Notes under the pieces: generated by a model
Database searches by the model: none
The model's input: the letters and a program-made list of their open reading frames with translations, nothing else
Told to the model about the DNA's origin: nothing
Made by a program: the position numbers and the translations under genes
Part shown: positions 8,118 to 47,901 of the stretch, piece by piece
Layout of the letters: each line of letters begins with the position of its first letter
Numbering within the stretch: the stretch's first letter is position 1
Source of the DNA: Chloroflexales bacterium ZM16-3
GTDB taxonomy: Bacteria > Chloroflexota > Chloroflexia > Chloroflexales > Chloroflexaceae
NCBI GenBank assembly: GCA_004138175.2
Contig: RYFE02000030.1
Coordinates: 1-64,000 of the forward strand
Length of the DNA: 64,000 nucleotides
Reading direction: 5' to 3'

Positions 8118-9716
8118 ATGATTGAGCTTAACCCTAACCAGCCGCCATCGCAGCTGCGTACAGATCTACAATCGCTTCAACGTCGGGCCGCTAATCGTCA
8201 GGGGCGTCACAGACAGAGCTTCCAGCCGCTCGCAGATCTGAACAGTGTCGTTACTTCTGCGTTTCGCTCCCCCGGCCTCTTGTTGACAAAACTTCCGGCC
8301 CGGTTCCTGCTCCATACAGTCATTATCCTGACTGTTCCCCTCGCGCTCCTCCTCAGCCAGCTCCCGGTGAACCTGATCACCAACCCTGAGGTGATGATCG
8401 CAGCCCCCCAGGACACGCTCGTCGGGATTGGCCCGATCAGTCTGGACTCCATGAACACCCTCACGCAGATTGGGGATCCGCCCCTGGATGATGCTGAGGC
8501 GCTGCCTGTCCCGCTCTCACTCAGCTCGCGAAGCGCGCTCCTCGCCCCGCTGATCGTCCCGGCGACGATATCCGGCGATGTGGTGAAGCTGCGCAATGGC
8601 CCCGGCCTGGCCTATGATGATATTAGTCGAATCACTGGAGGCACCTCGATAGAGGTGCTAGGACGACACGAGGAGTGGCTCCAGATCCGACAGGCTGGAG
8701 ACCCCCTGCCTTACTGGGTCGCCACCGAACTCGTCGATGTCCCCGAGGCGGTGATATACGCCCTGAACGTCGTCCCCGATGAGCAGATCCCGCCCCCGCC
8801 CCCGCCGAAGATCGGGGTGGTGGTTGAGGAGGGATTGAACCTGCGCGATGGCCCCGGCACGAACTATGTCAGCATGGCGCGCATGGGCAATGGACAGGAG
8901 CTCACGCTGGTCGAGCAGTTCCAGGGCTGGTTCCTGGTGGAGTACGGCACCCAGTACGGCTGGGTGACGCGGGACTTCCTAAACATTGTGGACGGCGTGG
9001 TCGAGCGGGTACCGGTCGCCCAGACGATCCCCGACCCCAACCCGGCCCTGATCGGTGCCGTGCTTGAGAACGCAGTCAATATGCGCAAAGGTCCCGGCTC
9101 GGCCTACGAGCGGGTTGGCTCAGTGAATGCTGGCTCTCAGGTGGCGCTCCTGGCCAAATACAAAGACTGGGTGAAGGTACAGCTCGACAATGGCACCAAG
9201 GCGTGGATCTTCTCGGATCTGCTGAAGATCTCGCCAATGGCCATCCGGCGCGTGCCGACGACCACGAACTTCCCGGCACTGCCGAGCCGTGTGGCTACGG
9301 TACGAGGCTCCAGCGGCGCGGTGAATGTCGCGGCTAGCGGCGATGTCGCGAGCTATGCGGTGCAGTTTATCGGCTCACGCTACCGCTGGGGCGGCAGCGG
9401 CCCAGGCGGCTTCGACTGCAGCGGGCTGACGAGCTATGTCTATCGGCAGTACGGCGTGGGCCTGCCCCACAGCGCCGCTGGACAGTTCAGCACCCGCTAT
9501 GGTGCGATGATCGGCAACATGGGTAGCCTTGCCCCCGGCGACCTCGTCTTCTTCGCGGGCACCGGCGGCCACCGTGGTATCTCGCACGTCGCCATCTATA
9601 TTGGCGGAGGCCAGATCGTCCACGCGATGACCCCAAGCTATGGCGTGCAGGTGTCTGGCGTCTGGAGCAGCTACTGGCAGAACCACTTTGTGGGTGCCAT
9701 CAGGCCGTATCGCTAG
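8118..9716 (+). CDS. Membrane-anchored triple-SH3 NlpC/P60 peptidoglycan hydrolase
   Basis: This 532-residue protein probably cleaves peptide stems in peptidoglycan. A cytosolic N-terminus of about 60 residues precedes a membrane helix at 62-84. Three bacterial SH3 domains follow, at about 152-210, 233-292 and 311-370, each starting with an (L/M)R.GPG motif. They are joined by proline-rich linkers. The C-terminal NlpC/P60 domain (405-532) keeps the catalytic Cys434 in GFDCSGL, His490 in SHVAIYIG and a third polar residue, His502. The ATG at 8118 was chosen because AGGTGG lies about nine bases upstream; the frame is open to 7977 but those codons look like leader sequence. A strong promoter and long leader precede it and an excellent terminator follows at 9752. 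Confidence 0.92.
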   Translation: MIELNPNQPPSQLRTDLQSLQRRAANRQGRHRQSFQPLADLNSVVTSAFRSPGLLLTKLPARFLLHTVIILTVPLALLLSQLPVNLITNPEVMIAAPQDTLVGIGPISLDSMNTLTQIGDPPLDDAEALPVPLSLSSRSALLAPLIVPATISGDVVKLRNGPGLAYDDISRITGGTSIEVLGRHEEWLQIRQAGDPLPYWVATELVDVPEAVIYALNVVPDEQIPPPPPPKIGVVVEEGLNLRDGPGTNYVSMARMGNGQELTLVEQFQGWFLVEYGTQYGWVTRDFLNIVDGVVERVPVAQTIPDPNPALIGAVLENAVNMRKGPGSAYERVGSVNAGSQVALLAKYKDWVKVQLDNGTKAWIFSDLLKISPMAIRRVPTTTNFPALPSRVATVRGSSGAVNVAASGDVASYAVQFIGSRYRWGGSGPGGFDCSGLTSYVYRQYGVGLPHSAAGQFSTRYGAMIGNMGSLAPGDLVFFAGTGGHRGISHVAIYIGGGQIVHAMTPSYGVQVSGVWSSYWQNHFVGAIRPYR

Positions 9717-39884: not shown

Positions 39885-39914
39885 GACTGACTGTTTCACG
39901 TGAAACAGTCAGTC
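39885..39914. promoter_or_regulatory. parS centromere site inside a 30-bp perfect palindrome
   Basis: The 16-bp core TGTTTCACGTGAAACA (39892-39907) matches the bacterial parS consensus. It is extended to a 30-bp perfect palindrome by gactgac/gtcagtc arms. ParB, encoded 1.4 kb away, would load here with CTP. Confidence 0.93.
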
Positions 39915-41318: not shown

Positions 41319-42440
41319 TTATCCTGCGCCGCCGAGCTTCTCATAGAGGCCCTGGAGTTGCTCATCTCCATAGATAGTAATCGTGAGGCGCACCGCATCG
41401 CCAGATCGCGCGATCTGCACCGGGGTCTGGAGAAGTTCCTCAAAGAGACGCTGGGCCTCAGCGTCCTCAGGGGACAGCGCCCGTGGATCACGGTGCTCTC
41501 CTGCAACGGGACGAGGCGTATCTCGCTTCGACGGGCCAGATCCACCGAGCACAGCCCCGCGATCACGAACCTGGGACAGGGCGCTTTCTAGCGGAACCCC
41601 TTCGGCAACAAGGCCGCAGAAGCGCTCTGTTTCACGAGCGCCGAGGCCCTGGGAGAGCGCGCTGTCCAAGACCCGCGACTGCTGGAGCGAATCGTCGATG
41701 CGAAGCAGAGCCTGGGCCTGCGCAGGGTTAATCGTCCCGCTCAGAAGAGCCTGTCGCGCTGCTGGGGCAAGGGTCACCTGGAGCGCTATCTCGCCAATTC
41801 GCTCAGCCTCGCGGACGCTGAGATCGCGGCGGACGATCAGGTCAAGGGCGGCACCCTGGGACTCGGCGTCATCGAAGCGCAGGAGGGCGCGACCGTGGCC
41901 GGCGCTTATCGTCCCATCGAGGAGCGCTTGACGCGCTGGGGTGATGAGCTTGATCAGGCGACGTGCGTTCACAATCGCTACCCGGCTCTTGCCGACCCGC
42001 CGGGCGATATCCTCATCCGTTAAGCCAAACTCATCCTTCAGGGTCTGGTAGGCGATGCCCTCTTCAAGGGGGTTCAGGTCAGCCCGCTGCACATTCTCGA
42101 CAAGGGCGAGCTCCAGTAACTGCTGGGGTGTCGCGCTCTTCACCAGCACCGGAATCTCGCTGAGCCCTGCGCGCCGGGCAGCACGCCAGCGCCGCTCGCC
42201 GGCGATCAACTCGAACCCACCCGAGCCATCTTCGCTCACGATCACCGGCTGAATGACCCCGTGCTCTCGGATCGAAGCGGCGAGGTCATCAAGAGCCTGC
42301 TCATCAAAACGAGTTCGCGGCTGGCTACGATTCTCGTGGAGGCTGTTGATCTCCACCATGCGGACTATGTGCGCACCCTGCGCAGCCCCGCTCGGTATCA
42401 GCGCATCAAGCCCGCTCCCAAGGCCGCGTCTCCTACTCAT
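41319..42440 (-). CDS. parB: Chromosome-partitioning protein ParB (CTPase clamp)
   Basis: This 373-residue protein loads at parS and spreads as a CTP-dependent clamp to organise the origin. The N-terminal CTPase domain has GERRWRAARRAG at about 81-92 and ENVQRADLNPLEE at about 115-127. A helix-turn-helix follows at about 140-165. Residues about 168-215 and 226-273 are recognisably duplicated: ARQALLDGTISAGHGRALLR aligns with ARQALLSGTINPAQAQALLR, 59 residues apart. The C-terminal dimerisation domain is present. Its ATG overlaps the parA stop by four bases (ATGA), so the two are coupled. Two parS sites lie within 1.5 kb. Confidence 0.95.
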   Translation of the reverse strand: MSRRRGLGSGLDALIPSGAAQGAHIVRMVEINSLHENRSQPRTRFDEQALDDLAASIREHGVIQPVIVSEDGSGGFELIAGERRWRAARRAGLSEIPVLVKSATPQQLLELALVENVQRADLNPLEEGIAYQTLKDEFGLTDEDIARRVGKSRVAIVNARRLIKLITPARQALLDGTISAGHGRALLRFDDAESQGAALDLIVRRDLSVREAERIGEIALQVTLAPAARQALLSGTINPAQAQALLRIDDSLQQSRVLDSALSQGLGARETERFCGLVAEGVPLESALSQVRDRGAVLGGSGPSKRDTPRPVAGEHRDPRALSPEDAEAQRLFEELLQTPVQIARSGDAVRLTITIYGDEQLQGLYEKLGGAG

Positions 42441-43201
42441 AGGGCCTCCCGTTGTAATACTTCATCGGCCAGTGCCGCGTAGGCCTGGGCGCTACGACCC
42501 AGAGGATCGTACTCTGCGATGAGTTTACCGTAGCTGGGGGCCTCTGAGATACGGACGCTTCGCGGGATCAGTGTTCGGCAGATCAGGCGTGGGAAATGCC
42601 GCTGAACCTCCTCCACAACTTGCTGTGCCAGGTTCGTGCGCCCATCATACATGGTCATTACGACACCAAGGATGCGCAGTGTAGGGTTGAGGCCATCACG
42701 CACCCGCTCAAGCGTCCCCTTCAGCTGGGCCAGCCCCTCCAGGGCGAGGTACTCACACTGGAGTGGAATCAAGACGCTATGCGCTGCGCTTAGGACATTC
42801 AGAGTCAGCAGGCCAAGCGACGGAGGACAGTCAATTATCACATGGTCGTAGGCCGCCGAGATCTGCTGAAGCGCGCCACCAAGCCGCCGATCACGGCGTT
42901 CCGCGCCAACTAGTTCGATAGCAGCTCCAGCGAGATCCTCATCTGCAGCTATCAGGTCAAGCCGCTCACGGCCCGTTGATAGTATCGCGCTGGCAGGATC
43001 GGCTGTCCCCATCAGCAGATCATAGGTCGTCGCACGAAGATCCCGCTTCGAGACTCCGAGGCTTGTCGTCGCATTTCCCTGAGGATCACTATCTATCAGG
43101 AGCACCCGCTGGCCACGGCGCACAAGCTCACCAGCGAGATTGACGGCGGTTGTCGTCTTCCCAACGCCACCCTTCTGGTTCGCTAATGCAAGTATGCGCA
43201 T
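42437..43201 (-). CDS. parA: Chromosome-partitioning ATPase ParA (Soj)
   Basis: This 254-residue deviant Walker ATPase segregates chromosome origins by dynamic binding to DNA and ParB. The deviant Walker A motif KGGVGKTTTA lies at residues 10-19, followed by LLIDSDPQGN (A') at about 36 and HVIIDCPPSLGLLT (Walker B) at about 110. The length matches chromosomal Soj. The ATG at 43201 has GAGG five bases upstream; the longer frame to 43255 reads through the parS palindrome and is rejected. The promoter at 43268-43276 puts parS in the leader, suggesting ParB autorepression. Confidence 0.96.
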   Translation of the reverse strand: MRILALANQKGGVGKTTTAVNLAGELVRRGQRVLLIDSDPQGNATTSLGVSKRDLRATTYDLLMGTADPASAILSTGRERLDLIAADEDLAGAAIELVGAERRDRRLGGALQQISAAYDHVIIDCPPSLGLLTLNVLSAAHSVLIPLQCEYLALEGLAQLKGTLERVRDGLNPTLRILGVVMTMYDGRTNLAQQVVEEVQRHFPRLICRTLIPRSVRISEAPSYGKLIAEYDPLGRSAQAYAALADEVLQREAL

Positions 43202-43220
43202 ACGCCTCGTGGAAGAGTCC

Positions 43221-43236
43221 TGTTTCACGTGAAACA
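43221..43236. promoter_or_regulatory. parS centromere site in the parAB leader
   Basis: TGTTTCACGTGAAACA is identical to the core at 39892-39907. It lies 20 bases before the parA start and 32 bases downstream of the predicted -10. Confidence 0.93.
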
Positions 43237-43267
43237 CCAGATCGTTAGAATGCAAAGCCCTGGCGCT

Positions 43268-46389: not shown

Positions 46390-46652
46390 ACGGCTGGCGA
46401 CTGAAGTCGCGCCGTCGGGGCGCGTTGCGCCGGGCGTCGGCATGCGCCGACGCCGGAACCGCCCGCGTAGGCGGGCGGCTGGCCGCAGGCCCCCGCGACG
46501 CGGCTTTAGCCGCCAGCGATGTTGCACATGCCCTGCATCCCTGCGCATCCCGATGCGCTGTAGGCGGGCGGCTGGCCGCAGGCCCCCGCGACGCGGCTTT
46601 AGCCGCCAGCGATGTTGCACATGCCCTGCATCCCTGCGCATCCCGATGCGCT
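46390..46652. repeat. Family B palindromic repeats with a 93-bp tandem duplication
   Basis: Hairpin modules (ggcgactgaagtcgcgcc, gggcgtcggcatgcgccgac, gcccgcgtaggcgggcggc and others) form a cluster at 46390-46512. The segment 46468-46559 is repeated exactly at 46561-46652. The cluster is closely related to the copy at 51128-51254. Confidence 0.9.
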
Positions 46653-46694
46653 ATTGAGCCCATCACACCATGCCTCCGTAAGCGGATCGGAACC

Positions 46695-46808: not shown

Positions 46809-47363
46809 ATGATCCGTGTAGTTGTTGATAGCATTCGTGTAAGCCTTCTGACGCAGAATCGCGTCGTCGTGCTTCGCGAGACAGATAGCACACGCTATCT
46901 GCCAATATGGATCGGCCCCTTCGAGGCTGAGGCTATCGCCATGGCGATCCAGGGCCATGAGCCGCAGCGTCCGCTGACTCACGACCTCCTGAAGTCGTTG
47001 GTTGGCGACCTTGGCGGTCAGATCAGTCATATCTTTGTCAGTGATATCCAGGATAGCACCTTCTACGCCCGCATCGTTATCGAGCAGCAGGGGCGCACGA
47101 TTGAAGTCGATGCCCGACCGAGCGATGCGATTGCCTTGGCTGTCCGTACAGAGGTGCCTATCTACGTCGAGCCCCACGTCCTTGAGCAGGCTGGCGTCTA
47201 CTTCGATGAGGATGAGCAGGTCTCCCCTCAGGATCCTGCCGCCACCGAACCTGAGACGCCCGAAGCCGAGCCCGAGGTAAATGATGAGTCGCTGTCGATC
47301 TTCCGCGACTTTATCAATACGCTTAACCTCGATGATCCGGGCCAGGGCGGCGAGACGTCCTGA
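46809..47363 (+). CDS. Bifunctional nuclease family (BFN, DUF151) protein
   Basis: This 184-residue protein has the BFN/DUF151 domain over residues 1-130: VVLRETDSTRYLPIWIGPFE near 20, EAIAMAIQGHEPQRPLTHDL near 40 and RTIEVDARPSDAIALAVRT near 98. Plant and Thermotoga relatives have reported nuclease activity and structure, but the bacterial role is unclear. The acidic C-terminal tail of about 50 residues, rich in Glu and Pro, is not part of the domain. It has its own promoter and is followed by a 54-bp palindromic terminator. It is the only plus-strand gene next to the putative origin. Confidence 0.9.
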   Translation: MIRVVVDSIRVSLLTQNRVVVLRETDSTRYLPIWIGPFEAEAIAMAIQGHEPQRPLTHDLLKSLVGDLGGQISHIFVSDIQDSTFYARIVIEQQGRTIEVDARPSDAIALAVRTEVPIYVEPHVLEQAGVYFDEDEQVSPQDPAATEPETPEAEPEVNDESLSIFRDFINTLNLDDPGQGGETS

Positions 47364-47377
47364 GCTAACTTTCTGTG

Positions 47378-47434
47378 AGAAGACAAAGGGCCGGGGGTGT
47401 CGCGCGCGACACCCCCGGCCCTTTGTCTTCTTCC
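47378..47434 (+). terminator. 54-bp perfect palindromic terminator
   Basis: A perfect palindrome at 47378-47431, with core ggccgggggtgtcgcg, is followed by TTCC. It starts 14 bp after the stop codon and insulates the gene from the DnaA-box region. Confidence 0.88.
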
Positions 47435-47454: not shown

Positions 47455-47760
47455 GCATAAAATGTGGATAAGTCGCGTTCATTTGTGGATAACTTGCACC
47501 CTTTGTGGATAAGTCACCATAAAACGCGTGGACGACCATGGGAGAACCCGGAGAAGACTCGCCCCGCAGGTCGCCGCATGTGGAACATGTGGACAGCCGT
47601 CCACGGGTTTTCCTCATGGGATTCATGCCATTCCGGCAGCGGATTCCGACACTTATCCCCATCTTCCACATGACTGCTACGAGTACGGGAATCTCTCCAT
47701 CCTTTATTAACATGAATGATTCATGAGGAACATGATAGGAAGCGTTGTGTTTTGCGCCGC
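47455..47760. other. Candidate chromosomal replication origin (oriC)
   Basis: Three perfect DnaA boxes TGTGGATAA (reverse complement TTATCCACA) lie at 47463-47471, 47484-47492 and 47504-47512, in the same orientation and 20-21 bp apart, two helical turns. Near-matches follow at 47579-47587 (TGTGGAACA), 47588-47596 (TGTGGACAG) and, on the other strand, 47653-47661 (TTATCCCCA). An AT-richer stretch at 47695-47745 could be the unwinding element. No gene is supported here. parAB and two parS sites lie within 8 kb, as expected near an origin. dnaA and dnaN are not in the window, which is the main weakness; origins away from dnaA are known in several phyla. Alternative: a DnaA titration or regulatory cluster. 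Confidence 0.78.
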
Positions 47761-47795: not shown

Positions 47796-47802
47796 GCGGC
47801 TA

Positions 47803-47892
47803 GGCACCAAGGAACGGCAGATACTTGCTGAACCCCGCCAGGATCGAAAGATAGCAACGGTAGGTGAGTTCCTCTGGGTGTTCTGAGGTGCC
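47803..47892 (+). ncRNA. ffs: Signal recognition particle RNA, small bacterial type
   Basis: The 90-nt RNA closes with ggcacc at 47803-47808 pairing with ggtgcc at 47887-47892. The conserved domain IV is plain: gctgaacc, then ccgccagg, a tip atcGAAAgat, then agcaacggtagg, matching the Ffh-binding internal loops of bacterial 4.5S RNA. The apical tetraloop is GAAA instead of the usual GGAA, still a GNRA loop. It pairs with Ffh to target membrane and secreted proteins. A promoter -10 lies upstream and a perfect palindromic terminator downstream. Confidence 0.93.
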
Positions 47893-47901
47893 CCAACTTT
47901 A

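Follow-up and report, generated by a model that had tools for sequence, protein, structure and literature searches.

Does a cluster of DnaA boxes in a green filamentous bacterium mark the chromosomal origin of replication when the dnaA gene lies elsewhere? The DNA analysed, called the window throughout, is a stretch of 64,000 nt (contig RYFE02000030.1, positions 1-64,000, forward strand) from assembly GCA_004138175.2 of Chloroflexales bacterium ZM16-3, a draft of 127 contigs and 6.27 Mb. The host is an Oscillochloris species of the family Chloroflexaceae, as are the same-genus relatives recorded under Oscillochloris. We judge it highly probable (about 95%) that the locus is the DnaA-dependent chromosomal oriC of this species, located far from dnaA. 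The reading draws on sequence, conservation, fixed spacing, a strand-skew flip in closed relatives, and proximity to parS sites. The features of the locus and its surroundings are listed below; gene names come from our reading of translations; the SRP RNA alone was identified by Rfam.

39892..39907: parS, perfect site
41319..42440, minus strand: parB (ORF translation; orthologs beside the locus)
42437..43255, minus strand: parA (ORF translation; orthologs beside the locus)
43221..43236: parS, perfect site
46809..47363, plus strand: gene for a DUF151-type bifunctional nuclease, the conserved neighbour on the left (ORF; orthologs)
47379..47430: long inverted repeat rich in G+C at the edge of the putative origin, probably terminating the upstream gene (sequence)
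47463..47471, minus strand: DnaA box R1 (TTATCCACA on the minus strand), perfect match, register conserved in the family
47484..47492, minus strand: DnaA box R2, 21 bp from R1, perfect match
47504..47512, minus strand: DnaA box R3, 20 bp from R2, perfect match
47527..47533, minus strand: weak fourth box (CGTGGAC), at the same distance in most relatives by ungapped anchored alignment
47588..47606: two weak boxes in inverted orientation (TGTGGACAG / CCGTCCACGG), conserved in many relatives
47608..47616, plus strand: weak box TTTTCCTCA, conserved in many relatives
47653..47661, plus strand: BUS-like box 1 (TTATCCCCA), exactly 190 bp from R1
47662..47670, plus strand: BUS-like box 2 (TCTTCCACA), directly adjoining box 1
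47673..47690, plus strand: DnaA-trio-like tract (ACTGCTACGAGTACGGGA), degenerate in the window, CCTACT... in relatives
47690..47740: putative duplex unwinding element, AT-rich (CCTTTATTAACATGAATGATTCATG), where GC is lowest in the locus
47801..47897, plus strand: small SRP RNA gene (Rfam RF00169), right neighbour in many, not all, relatives

The three perfect boxes (TGTGGATAA, starting at 47463, 47484 and 47504) share one orientation and form a box–N12–box–N11–box array, as an earlier note on this DNA had described, and the 64-kb window contains no further perfect box. Chance would supply 0.05 such boxes in the window, and 0 of 100 shuffles reached three. That the cluster arose by chance, or is the origin of an integrated element, has the shortness of the motif in its favour and nothing further; the shuffles speak against it, conservation across the order and the phylum refutes it, and we give it practically no credence. 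The earlier note also counted three near-matches, of which one, TTATCCCCA at 47653, holds at no more than one mismatch, while the rest are weaker, though conserved in relatives. The cluster is intergenic, with no gene between the end of the nuclease gene at 47363 and the start of the SRP RNA at 47801, and beside the boxes lies the AT-richest 100 bp of the locus (47650-47749, GC 0.43 versus about 0.64 around it), so the description of the patch as gene-free and AT-richer stands. Elsewhere in the genome, the only other exact two-box direct repeat, on contig C84 at 89440, was set aside as incidental; it sits behind a glycosyltransferase gene, with no trio tract in the sequence examined.

A second module, missing from the earlier note along with its conserved spacing, lies to the right of the array. 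In all well-kept relatives, two adjacent DnaA boxes occur about 190 bp from the first box, followed by TG/GC plus either CTACT or CTGCTA, and then an AT-rich stretch that mostly ends in AACATGA, a motif conserved in most. The three-box layout together with a module distance of 185-191 bp was found in 35 of 44 Chloroflexales loci, compared with about 1.8% in shuffled (Markov-resampled) sequence, in a search that left the module free to fall anywhere within 55-450 bp. In layout, the module appears to match the Bacillus-type "basal unwinding system" (BUS), here taken as tandem DnaA boxes followed by at least three trios within 16 bp. The tandem boxes are present in the window and the trios are degenerate; trios are clear in genomes that we call Anaerolineae-type, a class name inferred from gene content, where textbook trios and BUS (for example TTATCCACATTATCCACAGCCCCTACTAATATTACT) occur 257-309 bp from the triplet. 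One relative (L030 / L206) keeps a BUS-like module beside the nuclease gene and has lost the triplet, which may therefore be dispensable there.

The module was compared with the letters of the Bacillus subtilis BUS. In the B. subtilis oriC (PMC8287927), as here, two tandem DnaA boxes lead directly into a short G/C stretch, then a CTACT-type tract of trios and an AT-rich segment; the locus differs in not being next to dnaA, in trios that are degenerate in Chloroflexales, and in a three-box array set apart from the module at a constant distance of about 190 bp. The oriC of Thermotoga maritima (PMC10316083) is similar in having a box region on which DnaA oligomerises, flanking an unwinding element with TAG repeats, but differs in the number, order and spacing of its boxes.

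The gene neighborhood fits a parABS origin domain. The earlier note placed parA, parB and two parS sites next to the boxes, and all four were recovered: the parS sites, at 39892 and 43221, lie beside parAB and 4–8 kb from the boxes, and they are the only ones within two mismatches in the whole 6.27 Mb assembly. Orthologs of the nuclease gene occur in 36 of 41 genomes of the family, and in nearly all of the 30 Chloroflexaceae loci examined the triplet follows that gene, its box starts again 21 and 20 bp apart. Named genomes widely retain the order parB-parA-parS-M23 peptidase-nuclease-[origin]-SRP RNA-cytidine deaminase-hemolysin-type protein-PRPP synthase; in Roseiflexus, Kouleothrix and a Herpetosiphonaceae bin, the nuclease gene and boxes are kept with partly different neighbors. 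Two or three relatives have the nuclease gene without the triplet, which counts against the oriC reading. Just before the nuclease gene, at 46500-46660, the window also carries at least two tandem copies of a G+C-rich repeat of about 100 bp, probably dispersed, since a similar sequence occurs on contig C84.

Beyond the order, 100 of 400 Chloroflexota genomes, representing 46 of 224 genera, each contain a single copy of the exact triplet layout (up to two mismatches), counts that are inflated by relatedness among the sampled genomes; a reversed control of the layout had no match in the same 400. When gaps were left free between 3 and 25 bp, three perfect boxes were found in 45 genomes, 29 of which use exactly 11/12 bp, the commonest of all such gaps in the phylum. 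Most of the genomes with other gaps come from a single family (f24), whose boxes are numerous and variously arrayed. These large-genome Chloroflexota have several dense arrays of perfect DnaA boxes at other spacings, sometimes several per genome.

The earlier note saw no dnaA near the boxes, and indeed the gene is not within a few kb of them; it lies on another contig, C33. Its upstream region (C33, about 8210-8365) holds two pairs of near-boxes (spaced 24 and 21 bp), one of the four boxes being perfect; they probably reflect dnaA autoregulation. Among 56 genomes checked across the phylum, the triplet lies less than 2 kb from the 3' end of dnaA in 13 (families f18, f23, f26, f37, f68, f77 and f83), while in six both lie on one contig with 91 kb to 3.4 Mb between them (linear distances, shorter around the circle for some); in the other 37 the two are on separate contigs, some of which could be close across contig breaks. 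Triplets adjacent to dnaA in some families (in most they lie apart from it) indicate that the triplet is a mark of the origin, and that dnaA and the origin have parted in other lineages.

Because the window genome is a draft, strand skew was examined in closed relatives carrying the orthologous locus. Samples were stretches no longer than 20 kb, taken more densely near triplets, which sharpens resolution there yet cannot create a sign change. One closed genome, G007 (5,258,541 bp), we take to be Chloroflexus aurantiacus J-10-fl. Its triplet is at 1,967,010, 1.97 Mb from dnaA, and at 1.95-1.98 Mb the sign of GC skew changes from minus to plus and that of AT skew from plus to minus; GC skew is negative on both sides of dnaA (position 1). 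Two-replichore fits place the best origin at 1.97 Mb in this genome (triplet 1.967), at 1.91 Mb in G009, another Chloroflexus (triplet 1.889), and at 0.50 Mb in G045, a closed Anaerolineae-type genome (triplet 0.506, dnaA 3.07). In G006, a rearranged Chloroflexus genome, the best fit (2.30 Mb) is displaced by about 0.3 Mb from the triplet (2.63 Mb), where there is a local flip. At dnaA the fit scores low in G045 and close to zero, or under it, in the three Chloroflexus genomes, so that an origin adjacent to dnaA is rejected in four of four closed genomes fitted. A further genome, G391, gave no clear skew signal. The check proposed in the earlier note, whether skew switches at the boxes or near dnaA, thus came out for the boxes in G007, G009 and G045, and against dnaA even in G006. 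The origin separated from dnaA that it proposed is supported by these skews, the BUS-like module at its fixed 190 bp, parABS synteny, and the dnaA-adjacent triplets elsewhere. Another two perfect DnaA boxes, spaced 20 bp, occur in C. aurantiacus (1960162-1960190), 6.8 kb from its putative origin.

Two alternatives assign dnaA's own surroundings a role. The locus might be a DnaA-titration or reactivation site (datA/DARS-like), or a DnaA-controlled SRP RNA promoter, with the true origin beside dnaA. Near-boxes do occur upstream of dnaA, and the published map of C. aurantiacus J-10-fl, a close relative in the same order, has oriC at twelve o'clock and dnaA as Caur_0001 (PMC3150298), as against about 1.967 Mb of 5,258,541 bp here. 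But the closed-genome skew flips at the locus and not at dnaA, contradicting the twelve o'clock oriC; the BUS-like module is present, parS sites are nearby, and the array persists where the SRP RNA is not a neighbor. This explanation is very improbable. Alternatively, in a bipartite or secondary system, initiation would occur at the locus and the boxes at the dnaA promoter would act as a remote control part, as might be suggested by the near-boxes on C33 and, in C. aurantiacus, by two perfect boxes that precede dnaA. By eye, no trio or BUS was seen upstream of dnaA, megabases separate it from the locus in C. aurantiacus, and dnaA autoregulation accounts for the boxes equally well; we regard such a system as unlikely. 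Thermomicrobium roseum is a member of the same phylum as the window genome. Its origin was assigned by GC skew, near dnaX, because dnaA and other marker genes were dispersed; in the accessible text of that report (PMC2615216) the assignment is by skew only, and no box architecture is described.

If the locus is the chromosomal oriC, a sequence of events can be proposed. The three strong boxes, on one helix face about two turns apart, would be bound by DnaA as a constitutive anchor. ATP-DnaA would next fill the weak boxes in between and the two tandem BUS-like boxes, which lie 190 bp or about 18 helical turns off; from these a DnaA filament would grow onto one strand of the trio tract, opening the AT-rich stretch at 47690-47740, where helicase would be loaded. 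Segregation of the newly copied origin would fall to ParB at the two neighboring parS sites. That the spacing is fixed although the spacer sequence has diverged is suggestive of helical phasing or of a DnaA complex bridging the gap. We lean toward the view that a large part of Chloroflexota has a common origin design, in which three strong boxes spaced exactly 21/20 bp are accompanied by a BUS whose distance is fixed within each lineage (about 190 bp in Chloroflexales, about 257-309 bp in Anaerolineae-type genomes); its survival of dnaA separation in several lineages would imply a rigid, helically phased DnaA complex bridging both modules.

The DnaA–oriC kind of origin is already known; the location, at odds with the C. 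aurantiacus map in print, and the rigid architecture of two modules appear to be new. No description of this architecture was found in the searchable literature, though a prior computed prediction at this locus for C. aurantiacus is possible (DoriC; PMC8287927 supplementary tables). In a phylum with hardly any cultured genetics, the signature would pinpoint the origin in a quarter of the genomes sampled, and it would correct the published origin position in C. aurantiacus; growth-rate estimates and genome re-orientation would become possible. The fixed spacing of the two modules offers a direct test of how DnaA might link distant boxes to a site of unwinding. In these lineages, dnaA would have moved away from an origin whose architecture remained constant.
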